Of a stretch of DNA of 64,000 nucleotides, positions 1 to 56,157 are shown piece after piece. Numbering within the stretch: the first letter of the stretch is position 1; each line of letters starts with the position of its first letter. The notes under the pieces were generated by a model. That model ran no database searches and was not told where the DNA came from. It saw only the letters and a program-made list of their open reading frames with translations. Both the position numbers and the translations under genes were made by a program. This DNA is from Tetradesmus obliquus (Eukaryota > Chlorophyta > Chlorophyceae > Sphaeropleales > Scenedesmaceae). The stretch covers positions 5,997,001 through 6,061,000 of the forward strand of contig CP126195.1 in assembly GCA_030272155.1 (NCBI GenBank), written 5' to 3'.

Positions 1-111
1 GTTCCCGTAGTATAGACATCCAGCAGCAGCTCATTTGAGGGGCACCCAGGGCACAGCAGCAGCAACAGCAGCAGCAGCAACAGCAACAGCAGCAGCAGCA
101 GCAGCAGCAAT

Positions 112-146
<35 letters not shown>

Positions 147-909
147 AAACAGCAACAGCAACAGCAGAAACAGCTCACCTGAGGGGCACCCAGGGAGCAT
201 GGAACACCGGCACCTCAGCTTGAATTGCCTCACGCTCCTTCACCGCCTGCGCCGCTGCTGGCTGCCGCTGCTGCAGCCGCGCCAGCACCAGGAACTGATG
301 TGTCTCTGGTACAAAGGCTGCTAGGAGAAAGCCAGCCAGGGCTGAATATGCTGCCAGTGCCATAAAGGTGCTGCGCCAGCCAAAGGCCTGCAGCGAGCGT
401 TTTAATGCATGGAGTGTTACAGTGCATACAGGACATCGTGAGAGGGGGCTGCAGTATTCAGTGTGGCCAAGCTATGGAGTGCAGCAGCTGTGATGAGTTG
501 CAACAAATTCGCTTGAGCACCCTGCCTAGGCATGAGGCAGGAGGCGCCATGCAGTTGTGAGGTGCAGATTCGTGGCAGTACTCACGTCGGATAGCCCGCC
601 TCCCAGCAGTGGACCAATGACGGGGCCAATGAGCAGCGGGATCATGAAGGCGCCCGAAGCAGTGCCGCGCTGGCTAGGAGGGTAGATGTCAGCAATCACT
701 GCAACAGCAGCAGCAGCAGCAGCAGCAGATTACTCACACGGATCGGGGCCAAGCGCATAGTACTAGCATGGCAGAGTATTTGACGATACTGGTGAGATGA
801 GCAGGGCACAGCTTCATATGCAGGTTGGGCACAAGCAGCAGCAGTAGCTGCTGGTGCCGTGCATGGTGTGTATGGTGCAGCCAGCGCAGCAATCCACAGA
901 GCCAAGGCC

Positions 910-958
<49 letters not shown>

Positions 959-3313
959 TATTATTATCAAAGCCAAGGCCTCACCTCCATTGCCGTTGGT
1001 CATAAAGGAGGAAACTGCACGGCAGGCAGGCAGGCGGCAGGAGCAGCAGGACAACATGATGGGTCCAGGTGCTGACTGATAGCAGTGTACGCAGCATAAT
1101 GAACTGTGGTTCTTTGTGCGGTAGTGCTACTCTGCACGTTGATGATCTCTGCAGCCATTGCATTGCCCACACCCGACACCATAAGCTGCACACGCCATAC
1201 TAAGCACCAGCCCCACATGCTGCTGCATGCAGCAGTGTTCACAGACCTCCCAGCACCCTGCATGGCCCACGTGACTGCAGCACCCCTTAAGATCACACCA
1301 TCCAACCGGAACTGCCTTAACCTGGCAATGACATGCAGGTCAGAGAAGCAAGGCATAAAATGCTATCTGTTGGTGCGGTTTGCACTTAGAGCAAGCTGCT
1401 GGTGAGGTGGGGTGCCGTTGCGCACCGCAGTAAGACGTCTCTGGATATAACATGAGAGATTTGGTGCTCAAGGTGTGCAGTGTGTTTTACGGTGCTCACA
1501 CTCCTTTTCTGGTCTCAGACCTGTGTTCAACCTGTTGTGGCTCATACCACCAGATGGTGCCAGGACCCACATGTAACTATCCTCTCTCAAAAAAGCAATC
1601 GTGCTATAGGATGTAGCCACATCACCCAGCCGCACCTCCTGCGCCCTGCAGGGCCCTGAACGCCACCAGCGTTGACACATTAGGGGCAAAGATGCAGCCG
1701 AAAGTAGCGCCCAAAAAGGCAATCGTGGACACCAGGTACACAATGCGTCGGCCGTACCTGCAGCAGCACAGGCAGTACATGCGTTCTGTCGCATCAGGCT
1801 GCCATCCACGATACAAGAGAAACTCATTTTCAAACCCCACCGTAACACAACCCTATATCCACTCATTTTTGCCTATCGCTGCACCCAACAGCAGACAGTC
1901 TGGCCCCACCAGCCGCCCAAAGTGTGCAGACCCCCACCAATGACAGCTGGCAGTCAAACCGCTTGCACTGCTGTATTCACAGTCACATTCGCCAGGTCGC
2001 TCACTTGTCGCTTGCTGGGCCCCACACCAGTCGCGCAACGCCCTCCATCACCATGTAGATGCTGATACTGGCTGCACCCAACGGTACAAAAGAAGCCCCA
2101 GGCCACACCAAGCCCTAACCCATCCCTACACGCATTCAAATCTGCCAATCACAGCACCCATCAACAGACAGTCTGGCCTCACCAGCCGCCGAAAGTGCGC
2201 TGGTCCCAAGCAACAAAAGCTAGCAGTCTCAACGCTTGCATCACTTGTATATTGAACAAACACTGCCAGGTCACTCACTTGTCACTTGCTGGGGCCCACA
2301 CCAGGCCAGCCAGCCCCACCAGCACCATGTAGATGCTGATACTGGCTGCAACGAATACAAGGAATCACATGCCAAACCCCACCATGCAACCCTACACGCA
2401 CCCGCTTCTGCCAACCAAGGCACCTAGCAACAGACAGTTGGCCCCAGCAGCCAACACAAGCGCGTAGCGCAGGTTTCATGACACTCAAGATTCCTAACGC
2501 TTGCATCACTCTTACTGCCGTGCTCACTTGTCACTTGCTGGGCCCCATACCAGGCCAGCCAGCCCCACCAGTGCCGTGTAGATGCGAGAAACACCATCCA
2601 AGCAAAACCTTAACCCATCGTCACGCTGTCCTGCTCCAGCGACTGCAGCACCCCACAACAGACAAGCTCCGCCCACAAACTGCGTGTTGATGCTGAAACT
2701 GACAGTGGTGTAACTCTTCATTTAACAGTCTACCAGCCTCAACACCTGCACTGCTGCAGTAGTAGCTGCCAGGTCACTCACTTGTCGCTTGCTGGGCCCC
2801 ACACCAGGCCAGCCACACCCTCCGTCACCATGTAGATGCTCACGCTGGCTGCAACAGATACAAGGAATCACATGCCAAACCCCACCATGCAACCCTACAC
2901 GCATCCTTTTCTGCCAACCAAGGCACCTAGCAACAGACAGAGTGGCCCCAGCAGCCGACACAAGCGCGTAGCGCAGGTCCCATGACATTTAAGAGTCCTA
3001 ACGCTTGCATCACTGTTACTGCCGTGCTCACTTGTCGCTTGCTGGGCCCCACACCAAGCCAGCCAGCCCCACCAGCACCATGTAGATGCTCACACTGGCT
3101 GCAACAAGCTCAGGGGACGTCCTCAAGTCCGCCTGAATCACCTGTGACAGGCGCGAGTGTGTGAACCAGAGGCAGCAAGATGCAGCATGACACGGCAGGA
3201 TGAGGACAGACAGTGGAAACAGTATTGACATATGTGAAAGGCGCAAGAAACAGCTCGTGCAAGGCTGCTGCTGCACAGCAAAGCGTGCACAGCGGAGACT
3301 TGAGCGTGCAACC

Positions 3314-3357
<44 letters not shown>

Positions 3358-4226: not shown

Positions 4227-4289
<63 letters not shown>

Positions 4290-8755: not shown

Positions 8756-10397
8756 ATGAGCTCCACAGGTGCGCGGCCGCTGCAGCAAAGCCACAAACCC
8801 TAGGTTTTGCTGGCCAGGCTTTTTTGAGTCAACCCCTGCTGGGCTGACAGCAATGTGCTTTGCTGACAGCACGACGAGCAGCAGGCATGCATAAACCATA
8901 AATCAGCGCAACAGGTGCGCGGCCTCCTCTGCAGCGCTAGTGCTAAGCGCCAGGGTGTGCAGGCCAGGCCGGCTGCGTGCCAGGATCCACATGTAACTAC
9001 TCATCTTTGATAGTTTGGTGTGTTTCCTCCCCATACGATGCTTTCGATAACTCCTGATTAGGTTCCCCACTCCTTTGTTGAGTGGGACATGTTACTTAAC
9101 GTAACATTACATAACACATGACATAACCCTGCCTGCAGTGGAGCTGGCGGCTGCAGGTGCCTCGGACCATGCAGTGGACCTCGCTGCCGTCATCAGCCAG
9201 CCAGCCAATGGCAGCCCGCCAAAATGGGGTTCTCACTCCTTTGTTGAGTGTGTATGTGAACTCAACATGATGTAGCGTGTGCCGCCTCTGCCTGCAGTGG
9301 AGCTGGCAGCTGCAGGTGCCCCTGGCAATGTGGACCTCGCTGTCGTCATCAGCCAGCCAGGCATTTTTTTGAAAGAGGATAGTTACATGTGGGTCCTGGC
9401 ACCATGTTGGATGGTATGAGCACAACAGGTTGAACACATGGTCTCAGACCAGAAAGGAGAAAGAGCACCGTAAAACACAATGCACACCCTTGAACGCCAA
9501 GTCTCTCATGGTGTATCCATTACTTGTGCCTCCTCTGCCTGCAGTGGAGCTGGCAGCTGCAGGTACCCCAGACACTGCTGTGGACCTCGCTGCCGACATC
9601 AGCCAGCCAGCCAATGGCAGCCCGCCAGAGCCAGGCAGCAGCAACAAAGTGGAGGCAGAGGTGGACTTTGCCAAGATATCAGTCAAGGAGGCCTTCCAGC
9701 TGCTGAATGTGAGTCGCCGCAACTTTGCAATGCCGTCCTGCTGCAGATGCTGCTGCTGCTGGCCACAAACCAGCCTGCTTGAGAATTTGAGCTGGTACTG
9801 CTCGGTCAGCTGACGTATTGCCGTTGCCCAAACGTGTGCCGCTGCGCCCCAATACCAGCACCCTTGCACGCACTGTTGTGCACCACCAGGGCACGCCTGC
9901 TGAAGCATTGATCCACTCTCAAGCAACGCTCTCTGCCTGTGTGTTGCTGCGCCCGCGCAGGCCACGGCTGCTGGCTTGAGCGAGGCGCAGGCTGCTGAGC
10001 GGCTGGCCGAGTTTGGGCCCAACAGGCTGCCGGAGAGCTCCACCAACCCCATCCTGCGGTGAGCCTTGCAAGTGCTGCTGCTGGCCTCAAACAGCAGTGA
10101 GGCATAATGCAGCGGCAGCAGCAGGGGTAGCCAAGTAGGGCAGGCAGTCAGCTGCACCAGGCAGTTGAACAGCAGCAACACTGCCAGTGCCCATCATGGT
10201 GACTGGCAGTAAGAAAACAGCATTTAGGCATGTTGCATGGTCCGCCTCCACGATTAGATTTCTAATGTGCTTTCTAATCGGCAATTCACAGCCGCTGGCT
10301 GCCTCGCCATGTGCAGGCTCCTGGTTTATCTGTGGACCCTCTGTTCAACAAGCGGCCGCGTCACAGACAAAAGTATATGTGTGATGCATGTGCCTCT

Positions 10398-10431
<34 letters not shown>

Positions 10432-13400
10432 GCTGCTGCTGCTGCTGCTGCTGCTGCCAGGTTCCTGGGCTACCTGTGGAACCCGCTGTCCTGGGCCATG
10501 GAGGTGGCTGCAGTGCTGGCCATCATCCTGCTGGACTACGCGGACTTTGCGCTGGTGAGGGCGCTGCTTGCATCGCGCTTGTGTTACACAACCACATGTA
10601 GCTGCTGCCTCTTGGAATAGGTATGCTTGTGACCCAGACCTTCATCAGTGTCAGTTCACCACTTCAACCACTGGTAAGGGCGCTTTCCGTTTTTCACTAG
10701 AGATACCGACCTTCATTGCTGGTGACACTGGGCCTGTCTTCCTCAGAAGGCATCACCCAAAACAAGAATGTAGAACAGTGGTGAGACGTAGGCACTCCTG
10801 CAGCCGTTGCAGCGCTGCAGCAGTGCGCCGCTGCTAACGCTATGCTCGGGTGCTCACCAGGCTGTTGGCAAGAAAACAGCAGCAGCTGCACAGTAGTAGG
10901 TAGAATGAGTTCCCACGATTGAACCTCTCAGGACCATACCAGGCCTGTCCTTGTCCTTCTCTTACTTGCGCGTGGAAGAGCATAGGCTCAATCCGGCTTG
11001 CCTGCTTCTGATGCGTAGGACTTGTAACTTGTAACTAGCAGCTGCGCAGACCGCCAGGGCCCGAACTCGGCAGGCAGCAGCATGGTGCTGTCTCACAATT
11101 GCTCAGCAGAACAGTGCGTAGCCCAGCCTTTCAGTTGGCAAGCTGCAGCACTGTGATGATGTAGGAAGTGAGTTGCCGAGTGTTGCTTCTGCTGCTGCCG
11201 CTGCTGCTGCTGTTTCCCTGCCAGATTGTTGCGCTGCTGCTGCTCAACGCCACCATCTCCTTTGTGGAGGCGTCCAATGCTGACAAGGCCATCAAGGCGC
11301 TGGCAGGCGCGCTGGCACCAAAGTGCAGGGTGAGCTGCTGCTGCTGCCGCCGCTGCTGCTGCTGCCAGCATGAGTGACACCTTCAACATGTACTGAGCAG
11401 CGGTGGTTTTGGAATCGAAGCTGGTGCAGTAGCGCAGGATTTGAGCTTCTACATGGCAGCTGCCTTCACTGCTGCATTCGCACGTCACTCAGCAGCAGCT
11501 GCTGCAAGGAAGCAAGCGTCGACATGCCTGTGTCTGGGCGTATGCTTCTGCCACCAGCCTGCCGCTGCCTGTTTCTGACCGCCGCAGGCGCTGCGTGGCG
11601 GTCAGGTGCGGGCCATGGACGCGTCCGACATCGTGCCTGGTGACGTGCTGTTGGTGCGGCTGGGCGACATCGTGCCCGCTGACATAAAGATCTTGGGCGA
11701 GGAGGAGGAGGAGGGTGCGGAAGAGGCGGCAGCACCCATGCAGGTGAGACGCCGCATACAGATACAATCGTTACATGTGGGTTCTACCACCAGCTTATAC
11801 AGATCCTGGGCGAGGAGGAGGAAGAGGCAGCGCCCATGCAGGTGATATACCCAGGAGAGCAGCGTCGGCAGCACCAGTTGGGTTGACGTAAACAATGTGC
11901 AATCCTGTTAAGAAACACAGCATACGGCTTGTGGGCGCAGCAGCTGAAACCTGGGACGACGTTGCAAGCTCTGTTTTTTCACACCTGTGGTTGCTGCCAC
12001 ATTCATGCCGGGTGCTTTTTGTGGTGATCGAAGTTGCAACACTTTATTATGCGCATGCTGCTGTTGTTGCCGGCCGCGGATCGACCAGGCCGCGCTGACA
12101 GGGGAGCGCCTGCCGGTCAACAAGCATACAGCTTGACTACAGCAGCTGAAACGCTAGGGATGACGTGGCAGGCATAGATTTTTGTATTTGATGTGATTGC
12201 TGCTGCATGCCTGCAGGGTGGATTTTGCAAGCGATTCTAAATTTGAACACTGTTGTTTTACCCCTGCTGCTGCTGCTGTGTGCTGCTGCAGATCGACCAA
12301 GCCGCGCTGACCGGGGAGAGCCTGCCGGTGAAGAAGTTCCCTGGGGACGTGGCCTTCAGCGGCAGCACCGTCAAGCAGGGCGAGCGCCACGCACTGGTCT
12401 ACGCCACAGGTGACAAGCGCAGGGCAACTCACACCACCGCCTTTTTTTCGCCACCGCCTTCAGGACCTTGTAGCAGTAGTTGAGCTGTGTCATATACATG
12501 TGCACTTCAGCCCTGTCTGTTGTCACCTGCATCACTGCCCTCGCCTGCTGCTGTCTGGTTCCAGGTGTGAACACCTTCTTTGGGCGCGCTGCTGCCCTCA
12601 TCGGGTCAACCAACAACGTGGCAAACATCCAAAAGGTGAGAGGTGCTCAATCATTCCTTGCGAATTTTCATTTTTTGCAGTACACCATACATGATGCGGC
12701 TGTCGTTGTGGGGGAGCAGATGTTGTGTCCTATGTACAAATCCTCACTCCGCGCAGTGCGTGCTGCTGACACAAAGCAAGTGAATACATTGAGACAGCCT
12801 TCACAACGGTTGATCAGCAGGTCAACTATAGATCATAATTTCTCAATAGCATTGTCTGTTCACATTGGTCTTGCAGACTGCTGCACTTCTGCACCTATCT
12901 GCTAGCCGCAGCTGCTCCAAGATTCATACGCTTCTCCCTGCTGCTGCAGGTGATGACCAAGATTGGGGCAGCCTGCTTGATCACTATTGGGCTGTGGATC
13001 GTGGTGGAGCTGGCGGTGCAGTTTGGCGGCTACGGGCACAGCTGTTCCATTGGGGCAGGTGGGCACGGCAGCATGATGCTAGTCATGTGGCAGTGTACAA
13101 TGCATGCAATGCAGATTGTTTTGGTGCAAGCTGGCGGCTACGGCTGCTCCATCGGGGCAGGTGGGCAGGGCTGCATGATACAAGTCATGTGGCGGGGTAC
13201 AGCACCTGCAGGGTGCAGTGCATGCAGGGTAGAGCGCATGCAAGGCACAGTGCATGCAGTACGGACCCTGCCGCTCAAGCCCGCTGGTTGAAGCTTGTAC
13301 TTCTGTGTTGTCGCCCGACTGATCATATATCTCTACCGAAATGCGGCTGTATGAATGCAGGTCGCTGCCCCACACTGACCAACCTGCTGGTCATCATTGT

Positions 13401-14969
13401 GGGCGGCATCCCCATCGCCATGCCCACCGTGCTGAGCGTGACGCTGGCCCTGGGAGCGGCACAGCTGGCAAAGCACGGCGCCATTGTGGCCCGCATGAGT
13501 GCCGTTGAGGAGATGGCCGGCATGGATGTGCTGTGCAGCGACAAGACAGGCACGCTCACACTCAACAAGCTCAGCATCGATCTGGCCGCAGCACATCCGA
13601 TGGGAGGTGAGTGAGGGTGGCTGTGGTTGCAGTGCGGTTGCAGTAGGACGGCATGCATGCAGTGTGTGGATGCACATGCTTGCAGTGCGTTGGAGCGGCC
13701 ACGCTAAACAAGTTGAGCATTTATATCTTTACAATATCACAGCACGCCACCCCATGGGAGGTGGGTGAGCGCGGTTGTGGGTGTGTTTGCGGTATGACTG
13801 CATGCGTGCATGCATGCAGTGGTGTCCCTACGTTGAACAAGCGCAGCATAGATCTTACTGCAAGCCACAGTATTGCAAGCAGTCCTGTCCTGACATCACC
13901 CGCCACTGTACGCTCTATGGCCTGGCTGCAGGAGTGGACGTGAACGGCCTGATCAAGTACGCCGCACTCTCAGCTGACATAGTCGGCGAGGAGGCGATCG
14001 ACCTGGTGCTGCACAACACCTACTGCGACAAGGACCGCCTGTGGGCGCCAGCCGGGCTCTACACGCGGCTGCGGTGTGTGCCCTTCAACCCCACTGACAA
14101 GTTCACGCTGGCAGTTGTGAGGGATGATGCAACAGGGCGAGTGGTGCGGCTCATGAAGGGCGCACCACAGGTGGGTGTGGTGGTATGGTTGCGACACCGT
14201 ATGATGCTTTGCAGGTAGCAACTGGCGTGTGCTGCCCTTTCCAGCACTGCTGCTGGCAGGACTTGCTGCAGAAGCGCGCAGTGGCGCACGCGCAGCTAGA
14301 GCACCTACAGGGGCTAACGGGCGCTATGTTGCGCCTTGTGATCCACTTCCCTGCCTTCGTGCTGCTGGTGCTGCAGGTGGTCCTGAAGCGTGCACACAAC
14401 TACGAGGCCATCCACAAAGAGGTTGAACAGAAGATCAGGGACTATGCCTCACGCGGCTACAGGGCGCTGGGCTTTGGCCTAGCTGAGGGGCCTGGCGGGC
14501 CTGATGCGCCCGGCACGCAGTGGCAGTTCCTGGGGCTGCTGCCGCTGTTCGACCCACCGAGGTGAGTGCTGCTGCTGCTGCTGCTGCTGCTGCTGGCTCC
14601 TTGCTGCTGTTGGTTCTGTGAGTTTGGCGGTGCAAGTCCCTCGAATGCTGCAGCATGTGACACCATGACAACAGCACTGTAGGCTGCCCCTGTGGGTTAT
14701 TGGCAGAAAATATGCGACCCGCCAAGGTGAGTACTGCTGCTGCTACTCTACTCATCACCGCCGCTGCTGGAGCTGTGCCGTGGAGCTGACGTCAGCAGAC
14801 GTCACAGCCAGCATGCAGATATGGCGCTATGCATCGCTGGTTCAGTCCATTGCTTTCCCTTCCTTACTGTTGGATTGGAAACTCACCATGCAATATATTG
14901 CGGCTATATAGCCGCTTGAGGTGCTGTTGGAGCTCCTGATGGTGCCTATAGAAATTAGAGTGCTTGCGG

Positions 14970-15017
<48 letters not shown>

Positions 15018-17283
15018 AGGCACGACACCGCGGAGACCATTGAGCGCTGCCACGCGCAGGGCATCGCGGTGAAGATGGTGACTGGCGACCAGGCGCTGAT
15101 CGGCGTGGAGACTGCACGCCAGCTGGGCATGGGCACCAACATACACAAGATAGAGGTGCTGCTGCAGGTGGGGCCAGGATGTGCATTGTCAGTTGTTTTG
15201 GCGGTTCTGTGGAAGGTGCAGGTGGTGCCACAAGTTGGGTGGGATTCACAGCATTCGTTGTTGTTTGGTGTTCTACAAGATAGAGGTGCTGCTGCAGGTG
15301 GGGTGGCATGTGCACTGTGGGTGTTTGGGCGGTTCTGTACAAGATAGAGGTGTTGCTGCAGGTGGAGCGGCATCTGCAATGTGGGTGTTTGGCCGGTGCT
15401 GTACAAATGTGCTGCAGGTGAGGCGCGATGTACAGTGAGTGTTCTGCTGCATGCTGCAAAGAGGTCTGATGCCCGACCTGACTTTGTGTGCTGCTGCTGC
15501 AGGCCAAGGCCGGGGGCGGGCTGGTTGATGGCCATGCCGATGTGGGTCAGCTGTTGCAGGGCACTGACTGTTTGTATGAGCAGGCTGCACCTGCATTGTT
15601 CTGCTGCTGCAGGCCAAGGCCGGGAGCGGGCTGGTTGATGGCCATGCTGATGTGGGTCAGCTGGTGGAGGCGGCAGACGGCTTTGCTGAGGTCTTCCCTG
15701 AGCACAAGTTTGAGATCGTGGCCATGCTGCAGGTGAGCGGATGCAGCAGAATAGCGGTTGCGTATCTGTTGCAGCACAGCGCAAGGTGTAGTTAGTGATT
15801 AAGATGTAGCAGCTAAATCCACATGCGCCATGTGCGTCGCTTACGACTTCCTGCGCTCCAGGTGGTGCAGATAACTGGCAGCCATGGTGTGGTTATGAAT
15901 GGGATAACAGCCTGTGTTGTGCGCTGCTGCCTCTGGCACCTCAAATGCAGGCGCGCGACTACATGGTGGGCATGACATTATGCATAGATCTGAGCAGAAC
16001 ACGATGTATTGCCTGTGCGCTGCAACCTCTGCCTCCACACATTTCGCAGGCGCGCAACCACATGGTGGGCATGACGGGTGACGGCGGTTGGATTTTGATC
16101 CATTGCTCAAAGCCTGTGCTGTGTGCTGCTGCCCCTGCTGCCTCATCCCCCCTCATGACTAGGGTCGCGACCACATGGTGGGCATGACGGGTGACGGCGT
16201 GAACGACGCGCCCGCGCTGAAGAAGGCGGACGTGGGCATCGCGGTGCATGGCGCCACAGAGGCGGCCCGCGGCGCAGCAGACATCGTGCTGGTGAGAGGG
16301 TGTGGCAGGCGCACAGCCGATATGCGGGGGGCAATTTACCAGGAAGCATGCTGTGATGACTCAATTGTCTGGGATAAAACAGTGTCTGCCGTAGTAGCCA
16401 GGGGATGCTTACCAGGAGCCTTTGACACATTGACCTGCCTCCGCTGTTGGCTATGGTTGAACATACTGAGTTGTGCAAGCGTTCTAACACCGCTGCCTGC
16501 ACTTGGCCTTTCCCCCGCAGACAAAGCTGGGGCTGTCGGTGATTTGGAGGCGGCAATCGTCAGACTGAGCTACCTGTTTCTGCACAACTCCACGCGCTTG
16601 TCATTGCTGCCTGCGCTTACTTCCCCACGCAGATGGAGCCTGGGCTTTCTGTGATTGTGGAGGCGGTGATTGGCGCGCGCTGCATCTTCCCGGCATCATT
16701 GTGCCCTGTTACTGCTGCCTGCACATCCTGCTGCAGACGGAGCCCGGGCTGTCCGTCATTGTGGAGGCGGTGATTGGGGCGCGCTGCATCTTCCAGCGCA
16801 TGACCACCTACGCCAAGTACACCGTGGCCATGACCTTCCGGGTGTGCTTCACCTTTGGCATCCTGACCATCGCCTACAACTGGTGAGGCGCTTGTGTACA
16901 GGCTGGCAGCACTACAAAGGCCGTCCTGCCTGCTTTGCTAGCGCTGTGTTAGGCCTGCTTGTTTCGAGAGAGGATAGTTACATGTGGATCCTGGCACCAT
17001 CTAAGATGGTATGAGCCACAACTTTGCTGACCAACGCCTACAACTGGTGAGACTGTAATACATACCAAGTATGAGAACAGGATGTGCTGGCTTGGGTGAA
17101 TGTATTGGGGCACAGCTGCTTTACCGGGCATCCTCGCCATCGCCTACTACTGGTGTGTTACCCAAATGCAGCTGCGAAAAGGCACTGGGTGAGCTTACAT
17201 GCATTGACAGTACAGGGTGTGGTGACATGCAAGACATCACTTGTGCAGAATGTCGTGTAAGCTGGATCTCACCAGGGCACCCT

Positions 17284-38800: not shown

Positions 38801-41800
38801 TCAACTGCCCTCTGCTGCGTCCTCTTCTATGCCCGGCAGCCCAGCACCGCCCCTGCTGCTGCTGCTCCTGCCGCCGCCGCTGCTAGCCTTACTCTGCTTC
38901 GCTGGCCGCCCATCCACCGCTGCTGCCGCATCTGCTGCTGCTGCATCACACTCCAGCTGGCTGCCAAAGCCGCAGCTGCTCCTGCCGCCGCCGCTGCCAG
39001 CTTGGCTGCCGTGCTGCTGCTGCTGCTGCTGCTGCTGCTGGCTGGCCGACTGCATGTCTTGCGTCAAGCTGCGCTTCCTGCTGGGCACCTGCAGCAGCTG
39101 CTCGCCCTGAGACCCCAGCTGCAGCACCATCGCCACGCCATCATGCTCCATCGCTGCATTGCCATCTGCGCCGCCACTAGCATCTGCAGCAGAGCCTATC
39201 TCAGCAGCAGCGCTGCCGCGCGGCGGCAGCCCTGGCCCCGAGCCGCCAAAGCAGTTGGCGCCCCAGCTGACTCGCCCGGAGCTGCCAAACGCAGCCGCAT
39301 CCGGCAGGGCAAACTGCTGCTGCTGTTGTTGCTGCTGTGCGCGCGACTGGCGCCAGGGCGTGCCTGGCGGCTGCGTCTTGAGCTTTGCGTTGGCCCACTG
39401 CTCAAAGGCGTACTTGAGCGCTGCGCAGTAGGTCTTGTCGCGGTTCTTGCTGTACACGCGCACCTTCTTGTCCTGTGGCATGGCAGCACGGCAGCACGGC
39501 AGATGAGGCAATTACACAGATGTGCAAGGCAGTGTGCCGACATCAGCTTGTAACTGCGTATTGATGACTCGCTACCCCGGAAAGGTGGCCGGTGGTCGCG
39601 TAGTGTCTTGCAGGACTACATCAGCAGCTAGCACGCACACCAATCCAGCGCGTATCTGTGCCTCTTTTATCCTGCAGCTGCTCAAGCCGCACATGTGTGC
39701 GCCCGTGCACACGGTGGCCACAGCACTGACGGCTGCACTCCCTCCCCACCCTCCGCACACACGCTGCATCAATGCCCGGCTGAATGTCACTCCTGCCCAC
39801 CACCACGCCATCTGGTACATGCTGCCCAGCATGTTGCTGCCTAATTACAAGAGGATGCTGCAACACCACGCTTCACACCTGCAGCACACCACCACACCCT
39901 CCACATACACGCTGCATCCATGTCCGGCTGAATGTCACTCCTGCCCACCACCACACACCTGGGTCCTGCTGCCCAGCACGTTGCTGCCTAACTGCAGTTG
40001 AAATGCCACACACCATGTCTCACAACGCTTCACACCGCACCTGGTACACGCTGCCCAGCATGTTGCCGCTGATTTGCACATGGAATGCTGCATCACCACG
40101 CTCCACACCTGCAGCACACCTCCACACCCTCCACATACACAATGCATCCATGTCCCACAGAGCTTCTCTCCTGCACTGCACCACACACCTGGTGAACGCC
40201 GCCCAGCATGTTGCTTCCTGTCTTCACAGGACATTCTTACACCGCCATGTCCCACACCGCTTACATACAAAATACAATCTCTCTGTCAACAACCCTGCAC
40301 CACACCTGCTACACACTGCATGTGCTGGCGCCGCGTCCGTTCCCACCCAACTTAAAATGCGCACATTGCACGTCATAGCAGCGGACCACGCACCTGGTAC
40401 ACGCTGCCCAGCATGTTGCTGACGTCGCTGGGCTGCATTGCAAAGGCGCGGTCGCCCATGTCCCTGTCACGTGTCTGGTAGAACAGCACGGTGTCCATGG
40501 GGTTGGCCTCCTTCATGCCCTGGTCAATGTGCGTCTCGCACAAAATCACGTCCTGCGCGCGCAGCTGCACCTGCGAGGGTGGTACAAAAGTGGCGTCAAT
40601 GCAGCAGCAGAACAAAACAGTGGTGTTCTTCATGCCCTGTTCAATGTGCGTCTCGCACAGGATCACGTCATGCGCGCCTTGCAGCACCTGCGGCAGCAAG
40701 AAACAGACAACAGGGCTACGGCAGACAGAACAGTAATGGGAATCATGCCCTGGTCGATGTGCATCTCGCACAGGATCACGCCCTGCGCCCGCAGCTGCAC
40801 CTGCGGCAGTAAGAAACAGACACTAAGGCAGCAGCAGACACATCCGTGATGTGGTTTGTGCCTGGTCAACGCGCGTTCCGCACATGATTACGTCCTGCGC
40901 TCGCAGCTGCACCTGCGACAGCAGGAAGCAAACACCAAGGCATCATGTGGAAGCTGAGCACCTCCTCAGCGCTGGGCAACCCACCGTACATGCGGCCACA
41001 AGCAAGCAAGCATAACGGGTCAACCAGCGCTGTGCAACGCCACCCCTGGCCGCACCCCAACATATCAGGTAAACAAACAAGTTGTGGCGAACAATCGAGC
41101 CACAGCAAGCAAGCCACAACATTCGGCCTCACCCCATCAAACTTGGCGGAGCTCTGGTAGCCGATGACTTCCTCAGCAGTCGGCATCCCCGCATACATGC
41201 GGCGCGCCGCAGGCGTGAGCGTGACCTCCTGCACAAACTTGTATAGCTGGCGCCGCGCCATTTGCCGCATCAGCTCCTGCGCCTGCGAGGTGCGGCGGCA
41301 GTGCATCAAGCAAGCCTGAGCAGGTGAACAGTGTGGGAGCGGATGTTACATCAGCACAGTGGGTGTCAGCGTGTGTACAAGCGGGCCTCTCCTGCAACTA
41401 CATGACACAGCTGAGCAGTAACACGAAGCCGGCCAGCACAAGCAAAAGCTGAACATAAGGATGACGATGATGATACTAAACCAGGCGAATCTCCCGCACC
41501 TGCTGCACCGCCTCGTAGTGCTCGTCGTGTGGGTGCAGCCGCAGCGCCTGCAGCCGCGGCAGCAGGCTGTCATCCAGGTTCAAGTACAGGCTGATGTCTG
41601 CCGTGTTTTCAACAGCCTCGCGCAGCCCCAAGGGGGCCTGAGCAAGTGCCAGCGCTTCGCACACCATGAACTCCACAGCCTTTACCTTCCTGCGAGCAAA
41701 AGACAACGCACACAACAACAGCAAGCCAAACCAAGCAGCGTGATCCAGTGACATGCCAGCGCTTCGCACACCATGAACTCCACAGCCTTGACCTTCCTGC

Positions 41801-44800
41801 AAGCAGCAAACAACACACAACAACAGCAAGCCAAACTAAGCAGCGTGATCCAGTGACACGCCTGCTTCGCACACCATGAACTCCACAACCTTCCTGCAAG
41901 CGCAGCACCACAGCGAAACACGGAAAATAACAATGCACGTGACCAGGTGCTGCTTGAAATGCCAACACAGCGCCACATACACAGCCTATGTCTTCCTGCG
42001 GCCCACCCCAAAAAACTGCGAGATCAAAGGAACTCAGCAGTATCACATGGCACAATGCGATGTGCAATGCAACAAAAACAAACGCAATACAGGTATATCA
42101 GCAGGTTTAAAGCGCCAAGGCTGCCAGTGCACACTGTCGCAGCTTCCGTGCATACCGGTAGTTTCAGAGCACAGAGCGACAGCGTGTGTCAGGAGCAGCA
42201 TCAGCCCACATCATGCAAAGCACCCCGTCGAAGCATAGGCAACATACAGCCTGGTACAGCAGCAACTTACTGGTGTGTGTACACGCGCCGGTGCATTTCC
42301 GCCCTGCTGCCAAAGAGGCCCGTGGCAATGTTGCCGTACTCTGTCATCTTGAAAATGACCTGGCGGCAGCAGCAGCAGCAGCAGTGGCACAGCAATGAGG
42401 GTCGAAGCAGAAGAAGCATGCTTCAATAAGGGCAGAGGCGCACATGCGGAATGCATGCAAATACTGGTGCCTGCTCTGCTGCTCTTTTCTGCCTGCTGCC
42501 CTTCACAGTAGAAGACACTGCGCAGCGCCAAGCCATGCACAACAATAATCTCCATGAACTTCGCGGTATATGTTGTGACACGCCATGATGCTGTACAGCC
42601 GAGCGCATTTCGACCAGCAGCCGCACCTGCTCCTTGGCCCTGTCCAGCCTGCTCAGCTTCATGAGCCGCGCCTGGTCGAGCTGCACCGCCACGCCGCACA
42701 TCTTGCTGTCGCGCAGCAGGTAGTCAAACTTGTCGACGTCGATGCCGTTGCGCTTGTTGGCCACCTGCAGCAGCACGACGCAGCGCAGAAGTTTCAGTAG
42801 AACATTGCTCAGCAGCAGCAGGTAGTCAAACTTGTCCACATCGATGCCGTTGTTTACCACCTGCGGCGGCAGCAAACAGCAGACAACGAGTGTGCATGGT
42901 CTGTGTGCTTATTGTCCCTCTGCAATGCACAGCACCGTGGTGACAAGGGGTATCTTTGCAGCAATGAGGAAATTTTGGGCATCAGCGTCATGGTAGCACA
43001 TGTGCAGGAGCAGCTGTAGCTGCTATTGCTGCAAGCTGCCGGCCTGCAGCAGCGGGTGCAGCAGTGGACACAGGACTCCCAGCAGGCACCACAGACATGC
43101 GAGTGCGGCAGCCGCAGCAGCGGTAGTGGCAGCAGCAACGCCCGGCACTCACAATGTCAAACAGCCAGGGCGCTGATGGGTAGTCTGCTGCGGGGTTGGC
43201 GCTGCCATGCATCAGCGCCTTCACCAGCTGCATGCCGGAGCCATCTAGGCCGGCCAGCACCTGCACAGCAACACAATAGGCACAGTCAGGCGACGCACAG
43301 CAGCAGCATCAGCAGCAGCATCAGCAGCAGCAGCTGCTGCTGCAAGCACACCACCAGCTGCATGTCGGAGCCATCCAGGCCGGCCAGCACCTGCATAGCC
43401 ATGAAAGAGACAACAAAGACAACATGAGGCGACGCACAGCAGCAGCAGCAGCAGCGACAGTAAGCACACAACAAGCTGCATGTCGGAGCCGTGCAGGCCG
43501 GCCAGCACCTGCACATCGATGAAAGGGACAACAGAGACAATATGAGGCGATACACAGCAGCAGCAGCAGCAGCAGCAAGCACACAAGCAGCTGCATGTCA
43601 GAGCCGCCCAGGCCGGCCAGCACCTGCAACGGCACACACACAAAGCAACACACACCAATTAATGTGCACACATTCACCTCAATCTGCTTGCTCCCTAGTA
43701 GATGCATGCGTTCAAGCGCGATGTGTATAGCCCAACATGCTGCTGAATCCCCAGGTCAATGTCGTTGCAAGCGCAGCAATCTGCTCACTCCATTGGATGT
43801 CTGCATTGAAGCGGGGTGTGTACAACAACAGCGGGTGTGTATGACAGCAGGCTGCTCACCCCCAGGTCGATGTCATTGCCTGAGTCCCCGCTGGTGATGT
43901 AATCGAAGATCTTGTTGGACATGGTCTCATGGTGCCTGCGGGGCAAGTTTAAGCGCTGTGAGTGTATGGGTGTGTAAAGTGTGATGTGTTTTGAGGATGA
44001 ATGGCTGACTCGACAATGTGAGGCAGAAGAGCTCGCCATGAAAGCATGCCGCTGCTGGCACTGCAACTGCTGCCGCTGGCGGCTACGCTGCCCTGCAGCA
44101 CCGCTCAATGCTCCTTGACAACCTGCACTGCTGCTGCTGCTGCTGCTGGCTGCTGCGCTGCCTTGCAGCATGTCTCGCTACTCCTTGACGACATGCGATG
44201 CGAGTGCTGCTGCTGGCTGCTGCGCTGCGCTGCAACAGGTCTCATCGTTTCTTGACAACATGTAATGCATCTGGTCACTGCTGCTGGTGACCGCTGCGTG
44301 CTGCTGCTCCCGACTTGTTGGCAACCTCTTATGTGCCTGCTGCTGGCTGCTGTGATGTCCTGCAGCGTCGCTCACAAGAGATTATATGTACGTGCTGCAT
44401 CTGCTACTGAATTTCTGCGCTGCACTGCGCCGCCCTGCCACTCTGCTGCTAGCTGCTGCGCTGTCCTGCAGCGTTCTGCGCCTCACCATTCTTTGACCAC
44501 CTGCGGGTTGCCAGGGAACAGCTTTGGCAGCAGCTCCTTCTCAAAAACGTGGCTGAAGGGGCCGTGGCCCAGGTCATGGCACAGCCCTGCGGCAGCAGCA
44601 GCAGCAGTGACGTTCAGTTTACTGTGTGATGTTTGGCTGAAGGGGACTTGGCCCAGATCGTGGCACAGCCCTGCAGCGGCAGCAGCAGCAGCAGCACAGA
44701 TGCTCAGTCGACTGTGGCATGTGAGGCTGAAGGGGCCGTGGCCCAAGTCATGGCACAGCCCTGCAGCGGCAGCAGCAGCACCAGCAGCAAAGATGCTCAG

Positions 44801-46553
44801 TCGACTGAGGCATGTGAGGCTGAACGGGCCGTGGCGCAGATCGTGGCACAGCCCTGCACCGGAACCAGCAGCAGCAGCAGCAGCAGTATGCTGCCAGCAC
44901 CCCCGCAGCAGTTGCTGCTGCTGTTGCTGCTGCCGCCACCCACGCAGCATCTGCTGCTTCTACCAGGCATCACCTCTCATCCGCTTATCGCCAGCTGCGA
45001 TATGGAGGAACATGTGGCCTCCCTAAATCATTGCAGCATCTGCGCGCCACCACTGCTGCTGCTGCTGTTGTGGCAAAGTGCTGCACTAGAAATGCAGACG
45101 TACCCACGCACGCACCTGCCAGCTGCAGGATGGTGAGGTGGCGCCTGCCCTCTGGCTCAAAGTTGCTGCAGCTGCTGCCGGCAGTTGTGCTGCTGACTGT
45201 AAACACCCATGCTCATGCAACTTGCCAGCTACATTTTATTAGGCATTCCTGGCGCTATGCAGCTGCACCCTTTCTGCTGCTGCTGCTGCTGCTGCTTGTC
45301 AGATGACCGCATGCTGCGCTGCAGCCCCGCACGCACCTGCCAGCTGCAGGATGGTGAGGTGGCGCCTGTCCTCTGGCTCAAAGTTGCGCAGGGCCCAGCC
45401 GTCAGGGCCTGGCCCGCCCCTGCTGCCTATCAAGTGCCTGCCCCACTCGGCTGCAAGCATGATGTGCAAATCATGCATGAGCAGCCAGCAGGCAGAGCAG
45501 CAGAAGAATCGGTGCAATGTGGGAATGTTGTTGCATGGTTTGCTGGTGCGACAGCCACAGACGATCGAGAGCGCAAGTTCATGATGACGATATAAAGGGC
45601 TAGGTGCACTGCAGCTGTTGTTGCACAGTGTGTAGGTGCTGGCTGTTGGTGTGCTGGTGTTGCTGCTTGGTTGCGGCCGTTCTGCCAGCCAGTGCAGCTG
45701 CAATAGCCGCAGCGACGCCATAGCGCCTTGCAAGAACAGCTGTGCAGCAGCTGGACGTGCAAGCACAGTCACGCCAACAAACATGAACATGCTACCGTTG
45801 CTTGTGTACTGCTGCATGCCGTCATCTGCGTGATCGCTGTATCGCTGCTGCTCATAGGAGCGCTGATGCTGTGTGGTACCCACTTGCCAGGTGGCCAACG
45901 CCTATGCTGTGCTCAAAGCGGTTGTGACTGGCTCCAGGGAATATCTGCATAAGCAACATGGTGTTGAGGTGTAAGCATAGTTGTTGTGTGTTGTAATTTG
46001 TGACAAGGGTGTTGACACACGCATGTGCTAGAGAAGGTGCACGGCTTGGATCAAAACATGCAGCAGCAATGACGATCCGTTCGCTTCCTGCAAAGGATTG
46101 TGCAGGGCCTGCGAGCATTTTGTCCTGGTGCAATAAAGCGTAGCCAGTACATGTTCCTGAAAAACATGGCAGAGCAACCTGATACGTGCATCCTGCTGCT
46201 GTTTTAGCCAGCCCTGCTGCATGTCGGTACTTTGAGAGCCATTGCACCAGCTGTTGCAAGCGGCTCACATAGTAAGTAAGGCCCAGCTGCTTGAGGTTTC
46301 TTAGCCTCTGAAACTCTGGGGTGTCTATGATAGCCACTGCTGCCCTGTGCAGAGTGATGTGTCCTGCAGGACAACGAGCAGCAGCAACAGAGGTGTTTGA
46401 ACAGTGCTGCGTGCTCTGTGGCTCAGGATGCGCCTTTGTCCCCTAATTACCATGAATATTGTCGTTGAACGTCTTCTTGCGGCGAGCCTCGCCGTACTGA
46501 TACTCCTGGCTAGCCATGAACTGGGGCGAGCCAGACCGGTCCGACCCACTCAT
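38801..46553 (-). CDS. SAMHD1-like HD-domain dNTP triphosphohydrolase
   Basis: Predicted to hydrolyse dNTPs to nucleoside plus triphosphate and so control dNTP pools (family knowledge). Thirteen exons join in phase to 690 aa: 46553-46451, 46363-46269, 45944-45884, 45450-45337, 44586-44487, 43935-43860, 43260-43153, 42764-42627, 42359-42271, 41689-41500, 41282-41133, 40570-40394 and 39472-38801. The HD-site residues are present: H73 in FPGASHNRFEHS, H128/D129 in LCHDLGHGPFSH, and an Asp in GIDVDKFDY. W-HHETMS, HRRVYTH, RQLYKFV, DTVLFYQ and KVRVYSKNRD match the conserved downstream blocks of SAMHD1. There is no SAM domain; the protein starts just before the HD core (KKTFNDNIHGHI). The last exon adds about 190 residues of Gln/Ser/Gly/Ala-rich tail. 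Echoes of exon edges occur in most introns. Exon 11 could start one AG earlier. Confidence 0.93.
39815..40215 (-). repeat. Four echoes of SAMHD1-like exon 12 donor edge
   Basis: The exon end (minus strand AACATGCTGGGCAGCGTGTAC plus CAG and a GTG donor) recurs near 39815-39843, 39958-39985, 40042-40068 and 40187-40212. The real one is at 40394. Spacing is 80-205 bp. Confidence 0.85.
40630..41000 (-). repeat. Echoes of SAMHD1-like exons 12 and 11
   Basis: The 5' part of exon 12 (encoding VILCETHIDQGM) recurs near 40636-40692, 40745-40803 and 40864-40920, each with its CAG acceptor side. A copy of the exon 11 part encoding MYGGLPSAEEV lies near 40950-41000 (real: MYAGMPTAEEV). Confidence 0.85.
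41745..41893 (-). repeat. Echoes of SAMHD1-like exon 10 acceptor edge
   Basis: The start of exon 10 (encoding KAVEFMVCEA) recurs near 41745-41798 and 41856-41893, upstream in the sense direction of the genuine exon 41689-41500. Confidence 0.85.
42815..42865 (-). repeat. Echo of SAMHD1-like exon 8
   Basis: Copy of the GIDVDKFDYLL-coding segment with its acceptor side. It lacks the AACAAGCGC part and is not followed by a usable exon. Confidence 0.8.
43344..43625 (-). repeat. Three echoes of SAMHD1-like exon 7 acceptor edge
   Basis: GTGCTGGCCGGCCTGGATGG-like starts of exon 7 recur near 43344-43393, 43466-43509 and 43584-43622, each preceded by a CAG acceptor. The genuine exon is 43260-43153. 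An exon 6 donor-edge echo lies near 43749-43770. Confidence 0.85.
44640..44855 (-). repeat. Three echoes of the catalytic HD exon acceptor edge
   Basis: The start of exon 5, encoding the metal-site peptide GLCHDLGHGPFS, recurs near 44640-44672, 44730-44765 and 44822-44852. Variants include DLGQVPFS and DLRHGPFS. Only 44586-44487 continues into the full exon. Confidence 0.88.
45110..45165 (-). repeat. Echo of SAMHD1-like exon 4 donor edge
   Basis: Encodes NFEPEGRRHLTILQLAG followed by the same GTGCGTG donor as the real exon (NFEPEDRRHLTILQLAG, ending 45337). Confidence 0.85.
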
Positions 46554-52333: not shown

Positions 52334-52369
<36 letters not shown>

Positions 52370-53225
52370 CCATCAGCCACACCTGCAGCCGCAGCAGCAG
52401 CAGCAGCCCCAGCAGTAGCAGCAGTCCCAGCAGCAGCGCAGCCACAGGATGTTACTGCGCGCATCAAGCAGCTGCTGGCCAGTGCGCCTGTGGTACTGTT
52501 CATGAAGGGCAATGCAGCAGCGCCGTACTGCGGCTTCAGCAGGCGTGTGGTGGAGGCGCTGCATGGTGTGGGTGTGGGCAGCTTCAAAGATGTGGACATC
52601 TTCCAGGACGAGGAGCTGCGGTGAGCATGTTCAAATACTGGTCTTGTGTTGTTGGTTTGAGTTTCAATTTGGTGGAGGCGCTGCATGGTGTTGGTGTCAG
52701 CAGCTTCAAGGATGTGGACATATTCCGGGACGAGGAGCTGCGGTGAGCATGATTGGTTGTCTTTGGGATACCCTTGCGTTGTTTAGCTATGACTTGTAGC
52801 TTGGTGCAGGCGCTGCATGGTGTGGGTGTGGGCAGCTTCAAGGATGTGGACAGCTTCCAGGACGAGGAGCTGCGGTGAGCATTTGGTCTGAGCCTGATTT
52901 GCCCAAACAAATGTGTTCTGGGTTTTTTTGGGTTGAAACTTAAATTATACGATAATGAACATCATGGGGCATGCAGTGATGGTTGTCAAGACGGCGCGGT
53001 GGCATGTGGCTGCTTGTATAATGCGTCCGGTGTTTGGGACAGCATGTGTGCAGGTTCAGTTCTCGTGTGCTTCTTTAGGACATGCAAAGCAAGTGCTTTT
53101 GTGTTCAAGGTTTTGGCCGTATCTGGCCCTGGCTTGTGGGTTTGCACTCGCTGGTTAGGAGTCACCTAAGGTGGTTTGGGAGTGGCTCCTTCCTCTGGGT
53201 TCACCTCTTGCTAGAAAAACGTGTA

Positions 53226-53260
<35 letters not shown>

Positions 53261-56157
53261 AACTGATTGGGTTTTGGGGTTCAAATTTCAAGTCAAGATA
53301 ATGTTAATGAACATCATGCAATGATGTGTGTCAGGACGGCGCTGTAGCACGTGGCTGCTTGTATGCTGCGTCCGTTGTTTGGGACAGCATGTGTGCAGGT
53401 TCAGTTCTGACAGCATGTGTGCAGGTTCAGTTCTGGTGTGCTTCTCCAGGAGGCGTGCATCTATCACCAGCATGAGGAGTAGGCTGTAGCCCAGTACAAC
53501 ATGCAGGGCTTATGATTTAAGTTGGGAACCCCAGCTGCCGCTCAAAGGCTGCACGCATGCCGCCTAATGCTGCTGCTGTGTGCCTGCAGGCAAGCGCTCA
53601 AGGAGTACAGCAACTGGCCAACTTACCCGCAGCTGTACGTGGCAGGCGAGCTGGTGGGCGGCTGTGACATAGTGGGAGAGATGGCGCAGTCTGGGGAGCT
53701 GCTGCAGCTGCTGCAGGAGAAGGCGCCAGCAGCGCTGCAGCCGGCAGCGCCTCAGCAGCAGCAGAAGCAGGTAGGGTGCTGCTGGAGGGTTTTGTAGTGG
53801 TAAAAGGTGTACGAGGTCAAGACGTCTCCTGCGTGGCTGCTGTGCTGTGTTGGGAAGTAGCAGTGGAGAGCCAGGAGCAGCCTGGGGTTGGGTGCAGTAG
53901 GCTTGAGACTGCATGTGCAGCAGCAGCATGTGGGCCGGGGATGATGCTGCAGGAGAAGGCGCCAGCAGCGCTGCAGCCCGCAGCTCCTCACCAGCAGCAG
54001 AAGCAGCAGGTAGGGTGCTGCTGGGGGTTTCAGTGACAGTCCACTTCGTCTGACTACTCTCATATGCTTCACATGCTTAAAAAAATTATGCAAACTCGGT
54101 GTTAACAGTAAGCTGGCTCCTTTGTGGCTGCCGTTCTGTGCTGGGAAGTAGCAGTGGAGAGCCAGAAGCAGCCTGGGGTTGGGTGCAGTAGGCGGCATGT
54201 ACAGCAGCAGCATGTGGGGCAGGGATGATGCTGGAGGTGCATGATGTGGATGTGTGTGTGCAGGCAGCTCAGGTGCTGACATGCACAGCAGCTGCCGAGG
54301 TGACTGCCCTGTCGCGTGGTGCCTGGTGCGAGCTGCTTTCTTAGCCAGCGTGCTCATGTACCGCTATCCTTATCTCGCAGTACTGCTGCTTTTTGGGCTG
54401 TCCTGCAGGCGCCAGCAGCGGCACCAGCAGCAGCAGCAGCAGCAGCACCGGCAGCAATGACTGAACAGCAGCGGGAGCAGCTGAAGCAGTTGACAATGAA
54501 GGAGCCTGTGATGGTGTTCATGAAGGTATGCGTGCAACAGCAGCTGTGTGTAGCAGCGTTACGTCACACAGAGTTACTGGCAGTTCTGTTGCCAAGAACC
54601 AGCAGAGACCAAAGGCTTTGTAGTGCGCTCGAGTGCTTGCTATGTCACCAGGGCATCTGTGTTGTACGAGATTGTACGGTTTGTGGCGCTAGCTGCATGT
54701 CAAGCCCAGCACTGCCTGCGGGGATGTGCCCCTCTCAATAGTGCTTTGGCAGTAGCCACTGCTCCACTGCATGCGTCTAGCAGGTGCTTCACCTGTGCTC
54801 AACTCATCAGGCGGTTGCTGCTGCTGCTGCTGCTCGTGTGGGGTGTGCCCCTCTCATTGGTCCTCGGGCAGTAGCCACTGCTCCACTGCCTGTGGCTAGC
54901 AGGTGCTACACCTGTGCTCAGCTCATCGTGCCGCTGCTGCTGCTGCCGCTGCTGCTGCTGCAGGGCACCCCTGAGGGCCCCCGCTGCGGTTTTAGCCGCA
55001 AGGTGGTGGAGGCGCTGTCATCAGCTGGCCTCGCCTTTGGCAGCTTTGACATCCTCAGCGATGAGAGTGTGCGGCAGGGCCTCAAGCAGTACAGCCAGTG
55101 GCCCACTTACCCCCAGGTGAGCAGTACAGCGGTATAGGTAGGGATGGTAGGAGGCGTGGAGGCGCATGCGGTATCCTCATCGCCACACACTTCCCCTCCC
55201 TAACTTAGGCGGGTGTTAAGTGTGAACACACCACGCGTAGCTCATTCATTCAGTCATTCACCGTGGCACACTAGTTGTATGTACTGCCCACTCAACCCCT
55301 GGGTGAGCAGTGCAGCCAATGGCCCACCTACCCCGAGGTGAGCGCGCAACGTAAATGACGCTTGTATGTGTAACAACATGGCTTGCGGGTTCTGAAGATC
55401 CAAGGTTCATGCGTAGTTGTGCATGTGTCAAGCACAGCACAGTGCAATGTATGCTGGAGGTTGCTTGTATTGCTCATACAACCCCTAGGTGAGCAGTACA
55501 GCCAGTGTCCCAAACGAGCATCAGAGCCGGTTATGCCTGGTATCGTGTGTGATGCTGGTGTGCACGTTGCGGCGCCTATTCAATGCTGCTGTGACTGCCA
55601 ATCGCCGTTCCTGCTGCTGCTGTCTGCTGTGCTGTGTTGCCGGCCGATCACTTGTGCAGGTGTATGTGCAGGGCGAGCTGCTGGGCGGCTGCGATATCGT
55701 GCTTGAGATGGCTGAGTGTGAAATGCCAGATAACACTGCTGCTGCTGCTGCTGCCGATCACTTGTGCAGGTGTATGTGCAGGGTGAGCTGCTGGGCGGCT
55801 GCGACATTGTGCTGGAGATGGCTGTGTGTGAATGCCAGCTGACACTGCTGCTGCTGCTGCTGACACTGCTGCTGCTGCTGCTGCTGCTGCTGCGGCTGAT
55901 CATTTGTGCAGGTGTGCGTGCAGGGTGAGCTGCTGGGCGGCTGCGACATTGTGCTGGAGATGGCTGTGTGTGAATGCCAGCTGACACTGCTGCTGCTGCT
56001 GCTCGCTATGCTGTGCTGTGCCGTGCTGCGTGTCGTGCAGGTGTATGTGCAGGGTGAGCTGCTGGGCGGCTGCGACATTGTGCTGGAGATGGCTGGCACT
56101 GGCGAGCTGAAGCTCAACGTGGAGGAGATGATGCACCGCATGCAGGCCACCGACTGA
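51121..56157 (+). CDS. Monothiol glutaredoxin, Trx-Grx-Grx (GLRX3/PICOT type)
   Basis: Cytosolic Fe-S cluster-binding glutaredoxin involved in iron trafficking (family knowledge). Eight exons, 51121-51189, 51308-51409, 51844-51918, 52265-52620, 53590-53770, 54409-54525, 54964-55116 and 56041-56157, join in phase to 389 aa. The N-terminal thioredoxin-like domain (residues 1-106) has WSAPC at 32-36, so only the second Cys of the Trx motif remains. Two Grx domains each carry the monothiol CGFS site (C171 and C308) and WPTYPQ plus GGCDIV glutathione-site blocks. Linkers are Ala/Gln-rich and coded by GCA/CAG triplets. The first Grx has [12 protein letters not shown] where the family usually has KGTPxxPxCGFS; the second keeps the consensus. 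The order matches animal Grx3, whereas land-plant GrxS17 has three Grx domains. Introns contain many exon-edge echoes and a SINE-like insertion. Confidence 0.95.
51500..51560. repeat. CATG/GCATGC palindromic cluster
   Basis: GCATGCATGCATGCATGCGG and nearby GCATGC words in glutaredoxin intron 2. It is self-complementary and could extrude a small cruciform. Confidence 0.8.
52668..52876 (+). repeat. Two echoes of glutaredoxin exon 4 donor edge
   Basis: About 75 nt of the exon end (GTGGTGGAGGCGCTGCATGG through GACGAGGAGCTGCG and GTGAGCAT) is repeated at 52668-52747 and 52806-52880, 121-134 bp apart. Identity is high, and the donor is kept in both. Confidence 0.9.
52965..53452 (+). repeat. Duplicated intron segment flanking the SINE-like copy
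   Basis: The segment near 52965-53085 (GACGGCGC..GTGGCTGCTTGTAT..GTTTGGGACAGCATGTGTG) recurs at 53300-53452. Within the second copy GACAGCATGTGTGCAGGTTC is itself doubled. Confidence 0.8.
53124..53262 (+). repeat. SINE-like dispersed repeat, copy 2, with (TGAT)n tail
   Basis: Matches the minus strand of 5265-5378 and ends in a tail of about nine TGAT units (53226-53260). It is inserted in glutaredoxin intron 4. Confidence 0.65.
53942..54012 (+). repeat. Echo of glutaredoxin exon 5 donor edge
   Basis: CTGCAGGAGAAGGCGCCAGC through CAGCAGCAGAAGCAG and a GTAGGG donor, 240 bp after the genuine exon end at 53770. If used, it would add another Ala/Pro/Gln linker in the same style. Confidence 0.85.
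55299..55973 (+). repeat. Echoes of glutaredoxin exon 7 end and exon 8 start
   Basis: Exon 7 donor-edge copies lie near 55299-55338 and 55488-55512. The exon 8 acceptor edge (GTGCAGGTGTATGTGCAGGG through GAGATGGCTG) occurs at 55654-55722, 55757-55823 and 55907-55973 before the real exon at 56041. Confidence 0.9.

Follow-up and report, generated by a model that had tools for sequence, protein, structure and literature searches.

Why should the introns of a green alga hold partial copies of the exons next to them, each with a splice site attached? The question is raised by a 64,000-nucleotide stretch of the Tetradesmus obliquus genome (CP126195.1, positions 5,997,001 to 6,061,000; here called the window), whose initial annotation described such copies in nearly all multi-exon genes and proposed a local process that copies exon-intron boundaries. 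We use the term echo for a partial copy of an exon edge that lies on the sense strand in the adjoining intron. The observation is real and stronger than chance, although the terms "always" and "nearly all" that accompanied it were overstated. We think it somewhat more probable than all other outcomes taken together (roughly 0.55) that short head-to-tail duplications, with a commonest step of 100 to 149 bp, straddled splice junctions and that echoes are the halves left on the intron side. The duplication itself is most likely of an ordinary kind, the part worth following being the codon pattern of the copies.

The window was analyzed together with six 40-kb blocks, taken at fixed rather than random places (1.50 to 1.54 Mb of contigs C1 to C5 and C12), giving 304 kb in total or 0.3% of the genome (104.66 Mb, 17 contigs). 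Exons were called by an ab initio gene model that was self-trained on the window and the blocks and retrained after C12 had been added; exons without homology support are predictions of this model only, and the model itself favors frame-keeping exons. Its consensus was CAG/GTGAG for donors and CTGCAG/G for acceptors, and the introns it predicted had a median length of about 280 bp. Short-period repeats were masked. In a short probe test, 30-base probes from exon edges had to match at at least 25 of 30 positions within the nearest 400 bp of intron; this test excluded exons shorter than 30 bp, edges that did not border a predicted intron, and probes in which more than 6 bases were masked. In a wide probe test, at least 23 of 30 positions had to match, and the search extended 900 bp from the edge on its intron side.

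The wide test found sense echoes at 103 of 639 exon edges, 177 echoes in all, against 1 of 639 edges in the antisense control, thus confirming that the copies lie on the sense strand beside their parents. The spacing reported earlier (80 to 260 bp) also held, since 128 of the 177 echoes lay 75 to 274 bp from the parent edge; offsets of 100 to 149 bp were the commonest (63/177), and another 47 fell at 200 to 274 bp. In the short test, edges were copied on their own side in 42/590 cases (22 of 294 3' edges downstream and 20 of 296 5' edges upstream) and on the wrong side in only 10/546 (5/276 and 5/270), while exon-interior probes were copied in 10/1119 and 8/1263 cases and the six sets of intron probes in 2 to 6 cases per 199 to 253 probes. 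Antisense matches were 0 in all twelve probe classes. Echoes were unevenly distributed: 38 of 136 edges had one in the window, compared to 0/87 in C1, 2/114 in C2, and 5/64 in C3, so that "nearly all multi-exon genes" fails elsewhere in the genome. Coverage by local duplications, which was 14.6% in the window, 15.6% in C12, 12.0% in C5, 8.0% in C4, and 0.7 to 1.6% in C1 to C3, likewise varies from about 1% to 16% between regions of one genome.

The anatomy of the copies was examined in a strict set of 83 echoes, which omits echoes predicted as exons and parents below 80 bp. The exonic piece was short, with medians of 39 to 49 bp in the four strict classes, and in 77 of the 83 the exon-side end was abrupt, the similarity stopping inside the exon. 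Taken together, direct orientation, same-side placement, the offset peak, and the abrupt exon-side end point to tandem duplication across the junction. As expected for such duplication, repeats no more than 700 bp apart formed 218 direct pairs and only 2 inverted ones, and because the duplicated unit crosses one edge, the wrong-side edge is seldom copied. Under tandem duplication, the spacer between parent and echo must also share homology with the intron that flanks the echo; such homology, above 99% of the null, was seen in 39 of the 77 strict echoes in which it could be tested. An echo that retains homologous intron on its far side is unlike a copy of spliced RNA, which would lack the intron.

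We propose that a short head-to-tail duplication crosses one splice junction, after which the copy still joined to the exon body would remain the exon edge and the other, as the geometry suggests, would be stranded in the intron together with its splice signal. The probable driver is slippage, or else unequal exchange, within gene bodies that are rich in repeats. Edges would stand out because introns lose their alignability sooner, as seen in one tandem gene family, and the synonymous-rich divergence of the copies (see below) would require an extra ingredient, which may be either selection acting on the copies or their descent from alleles that had already diverged.

Whether duplications prefer splice boundaries was assessed in the window and in C1 to C5, which are also the regions of our survey of alignment ends. 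Within gene spans, 71 of 129 duplication pairs (55%) touched an exon edge against 45% under random shifts, and 35 pairs (27%) were intron-intron against 35%. In addition, 78 distinct pairs touched no predicted coding sequence (for example, 54721-54834/54840-54953 and 52925-53063/53272-53408 of the window). The intron-intron and the noncoding pairs, as well as a 144-bp satellite at 26063-27790, contradict the statement that every copied piece crosses a splice boundary. Offsets of 100 to 149 bp formed the largest bin both in noncoding-only pairs (16/78) and in coding-touching pairs (49/140). The recurrent local copying that had been suggested is thus borne out, but copying targeted to boundaries is not needed in view of the noncoding duplicates, the 45% and 55% figures, and the scarcity of wrong-side copies. 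The preference for boundaries itself received a divided answer, edge probes lying several-fold above interior and intron probes while placement was close to random.

A tandem gene family in C1 (26557-37811 of the block), the flanking introns of which are mostly unalignable, includes four predicted 1-kb exons that are 88 to 92% identical. The alignments of these exons ended near the splice sites in 6/6 pairs, with 2 to 16 noncoding columns, even though third positions differed by about 11 to 16% in five of these pairs and by 22% in the remaining one; elsewhere in the family, some exon pairs retained 34 to 198 noncoding columns. Introns here thus seem to lose their alignability faster than exons do, so that old tandem units would be visible mainly by their exonic part, and part of the excess of edge probes over intron probes may be such an effect of visibility.

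Several observations weigh against the tandem-duplication explanation. Gene conversion of the C1 exons could give the same contrast between exon and intron. No spacer-flank homology was detected in 36 of the 77 testable echoes, which had the same exonic identity as the others (2/77 were in between), and when echoes were compared with one another, identity over the exonic 30 bp was 89%, but the intron side was homologous in only 39/118 pairs. Intron probes adjoining the edge were copied in 2/232 and 3/199 cases, far below the edge probes. The preference for 100 to 149 bp was stronger in coding-touching pairs (35%) than in noncoding-only pairs (21%). A null model forbidding copies wholly inside exons expects 52% intron-intron pairs where 27% were observed; since this null also bars classes that were actually observed, we give it little weight. 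Finally, the synonymous share among the codons that differ between parent and copy was reached in 0 of 60 simulations of a neutral copy.

This codon pattern was determined at 48 loci, with one echo, the longest, taken per edge. Differing codons were synonymous in 147 cases and nonsynonymous in 72 (67% synonymous), and the differences numbered 40, 36, and 163 at the three codon positions (position ratio, 4.29). Simulations in which the parent was constrained and the copy neutral, with mutations drawn from the spectrum of the noncoding duplicates, gave 37% synonymous (standard deviation, 3%), the position ratio being 1.48 (standard deviation, 0.15). The excess was present with homologous spacers (48:21) and without them (83:37), as well as for single (70:29) and multiple (77:43) copies. 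C12 was the largest contributor (76:18), its removal leaving 71:54, and the window alone was weak, its 21:19 being reached by 2/60 simulations. At loci with several echoes, changes confined to some of the echoes were 123:127, where random mutation gives 28% synonymous; later copying from the parent confounds this count, which would bring it nearer to neutral. Neutral decay is thus rejected for the pooled set, a rejection that the 123:127 count weakens. The copies had been described as decayed. Some of them are, having stops or a lost AG, but 74 of the 83 strict echoes have an intact splice dinucleotide, and a divergence rich in synonymous changes does not fit decay.

The copies have diverged like coding sequence, yet they have no visible route to being whole exons; either they are in use now or were formerly, or they are versions that diverged before they were joined. 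That exon-edge copies are under protein-level purifying selection, serving either as alternative ends of exons or as partners of the real exon in conversion, is suggested by the pooled count but much less by the window and by the changes confined to some echoes, and we regard it as doubtful. Were it true, the introns of this lineage would hold a working reserve of exon edges.

Present use of the echoes as alternative exon ends or mutually exclusive tandem exons, with purifying selection keeping codons and splice sites, is in our judgment unlikely. It would account for a synonymous excess far above neutral, and 3'-edge copies with unrelated flanks do keep a donor score near that of the parent (6.0 versus 6.4), their donors resembling the parental one hardly more than unrelated donors resemble each other (4.45 of 6 versus 4.18). 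Moreover, 24 small exons (33 to 75 bp) were copied whole, 22 of them with a length divisible by 3. However, the gene model itself prefers frame-keeping exons; 5'-edge copies with unrelated flanks scored lower than their parents as acceptors (6.7 versus 8.8); and the intact dinucleotides are about what a change of 5 to 6% per site would leave, so that they prove nothing alone. A second splice site at the far end of the echo was not enriched (22/70 versus a background of 0.33, and 4/53 versus 0.17), no splice-site peak was found at the end of homology, the reading frame beyond the echoes was no more open than the two other frames, and stops made up 6 of the 372 codons that had changed in the 83 echoes. 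It would also be hard to fit an additional, partial active-site peptide into an H+-ATPase or SAMHD1. The lack of a second splice site and of a longer open frame leads us to reject complete alternative exons. An edge-proximal gradient of conservation was looked for in the echoes, and none was seen.

Dedicated copying of exon-intron boundaries, by template switching at splice motifs or RNA-templated repair, would fit the probe frequencies (about 7% for edges, 0.6 to 0.9% for exon interiors, and 0.9 to 2.5% for introns) and the many alignments that stop 5 to 7 bp inside the intron. It would also fit a 59-bp exon piece in C4, copied without any difference between unrelated flanks, and the enrichment of exons starting with GT among 5'-edge parents (11/24 versus 56/254). 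Nevertheless, it is improbable, since placement was near random, half of the testable echoes keep a homologous intron flank, the C1 paralogous exons show similar flush ends, and the synonymous-rich divergence would be left unexplained. Nor were CTG-type tracts enriched at exon-side ends (2.23 versus 2.62), and trinucleotide tracts as breakpoints were rejected on these grounds. The identical C4 copy belongs to a gene that resembles RAD54, in which a 60-bp exon is copied several times in tandem (31370-31957 of the block). In C5, a single exon 3' edge occurs five times within 14688-15407; a pyrimidine-CAG, acceptor-like stretch is common to most of the spacers, the rest of which varies.

Unequal exchange between diverged alleles, or with a hybrid partner, could have joined two versions of one exon edge, which would explain at once the synonymous differences, the copies' own splice signals, the unalignable flanks, and the absence of a visible present function. 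We consider this, too, a poor prospect, as alleles would have to differ by about 0.2 at third positions, and arrays of four or five differing copies need many alleles; in addition, one locus searched genome-wide, with common words skipped, had no second match among the best candidates listed. Unmerged haplotype overlaps, which by mixing haplotypes could yield local exon-piece duplicates with diverged flanks, are a very unlikely source given the many copies per gene at steps of 100 to 150 bp, the similar noncoding arrays, and a genome assembled in 17 contigs.

Other origins were rejected as well. A split exon, with its 5' piece upstream and its 3' piece downstream, was considered for C12 23400-23520 (48 + 72 of 121 bp), but both edges were copied in only 7 of 41 exons, the sums of the pieces vary, and there are no matching splice sites. 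For one C12 echo, a paralogous origin found no other match among the best genome-wide candidates.

Among known systems, tandem exon duplication produces mutually exclusive exons, head-to-tail exon copies in neighboring introns. The echoes resemble them in being head-to-tail copies in introns, some small exons being copied whole, but differ in that copies of larger exons are one-edged, with no second splice site found; apart from the 24 small exons, the copies do not carry both splice sites. Introner elements recurrently generate splice-site-bearing sequence, as occurs here, but the spacers of the echoes are not a dispersed family: only 2/62 spacers matched elsewhere in the 304 kb, and one 601-bp locus matched only itself among the best genome-wide candidates listed, so that an introner origin of the spacers was rejected. 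Intron gain by tandem duplication has reportedly occurred in potato RdRp. In Drosophila, introns were gained when exonic sequence containing a proto-splice site was duplicated in tandem (PMC2891723); the likeness lies in short tandem duplication within genes giving extra splice sites, and the difference in that duplication here crosses an existing junction. Intron gain of this AGGT type, which calls for an AGGT in the same register of both copies, was rejected, an internal AGGT occurring in 9 of 83 echoes and in 10 random parent pieces. In Chlamydomonas and Volvox, tandem repeats are described as reaching their highest density in introns and as being overrepresented close to intron-exon junctions (PMC3887541). 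The repeats there lie near junctions like our echoes, but the passages in question concern repeat motifs and mention neither partial exon copies with splice sites nor codon-structured divergence. Titles and the beginnings of abstracts, in a literature coverage that excludes most subscription journals, gave no description of widespread one-edged exon copies in introns.

If one in six exon edges indeed has a splice-site-bearing copy nearby, this genome is a natural laboratory for the ways in which tandem duplication gives rise to new exons, to alternative splice sites, and to longer introns. Should RNA and relatives confirm the excess of synonymous changes, the copies would not be inert. Gene finders should be used with caution in such regions, since our ab initio model called several copies exons.

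Of the window genes in which copies had been reported, those for the H+-ATPase, SAMHD1, glutaredoxin, and an MFS-like protein have them; carbonic anhydrase and SGNH hydrolase gave no Pfam match in the frames scanned, which were selected frames and not all six everywhere. The H+-ATPase exons were supported by alignment to the plant plasma membrane ATPase PDB 5ksd and by Pfam (E1-E2 ATPase). On the plus strand, the exon with the TGES motif (12292-12409; 5ksd alignment and gene model) has an aligned echo of its 5' edge at 12080-12124, which reads TGER and has lost its AG, within a duplicated stretch (11914-12124/12119-12336) that is 72% identical. The 3' edge of the predicted exon 12950-13058 is copied with donor and intron at 13123-13201 (13015-13099 aligned, 80%), and that of exon 13361-13606 with its donor at 13748-13810 (13594-13661 aligned, 75%). 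Alignment also placed two echoes of the 3' edge of exon 15020-15167 within 15275-15361 (15275-15297 and 15339-15361) and two of the 5' edge of exon 16163-16291 within 15951-16086 (15951-15976 and 16050-16086). Between them, the acceptor and 5' edge of exon 15613-15732 are copied with 93% identity at 15487-15560, a copy partly called as exon by the gene model. The 5' edge of exon 16737-16882 has an echo at 16633-16690 (5ksd alignment and probes) and a weaker copy further upstream, inside 16492-16606.

On the minus strand, the SAMHD1 gene was supported by PDB entries and a Pfam HD match. The 5' edge of its HD exon (44487-44586) has three tandem echoes of the GLCHDLG edge within 44634-44853 (44634-44670, 44725-44760, and 44818-44853; alignment and PDB), and the start of its VANKRNGIDVDKFDYLL exon (42713-42775) is copied at 42815-42871 (gene model, alignment, and PDB), the gene model fusing copy and exon start into one exon. 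On the same strand, the predicted exon 41500-41689 has an echo of its 5' edge at 41754-41796, in a stretch (41647-41804/41754-41901) that is 89% identical, and the 3' edge and donor of the predicted exon 45333-45450 are copied at 45104-45171, 221 bp away, with 96% identity. Also on the minus strand, the MFS-like exons 586-698 and 1636-1757 lie beside a tandem array with steps of about 250 to 270 bp (1797-3106) that contains copies of predicted exon edges; Pfam matched MFS_1 in these exons with E values of 4e-7 and 1e-4, below the curated cutoff.

The glutaredoxin gene, on the plus strand, was supported by Pfam, which also gave ankyrin. Copies of the 3' part of its exon ending at 52620 occupy 52670-52874, where the gene model called 52704-52742 and 52836-52874 as exons. 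At 53945-54237 lies an aligned duplicate of 53709-53953 that comprises a predicted exon end, its donor, and the next intron. An echo of the 3' edge of exon 54964-55116 is found 221 bp downstream at 55306-55337, and a tandem array with steps of 110 to 142 bp (55643-56095) lies downstream of the glutaredoxin exons.

The window also contains other repeats. The 144-bp satellite forms two inverted, facing arms (26063-27051 and 27168-27790), the best-matching stretches of which are 84 to 92% identical, and a 259-bp unit is repeated 2.6 times at 21295-21988 (94% identity), followed by a weaker copy at 22141-22313. Minisatellites of the GGGCTGGG type, with units of 36 to 78 bp, occur at 25180-25692, under a 501-amino-acid open frame on the minus strand, and at 28114-28330. 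A short dispersed repeat is present in both orientations at 1442-1597, 9364-9519, 16956-17022, and 29883-30027, and also at 70-133 of the C5 block.

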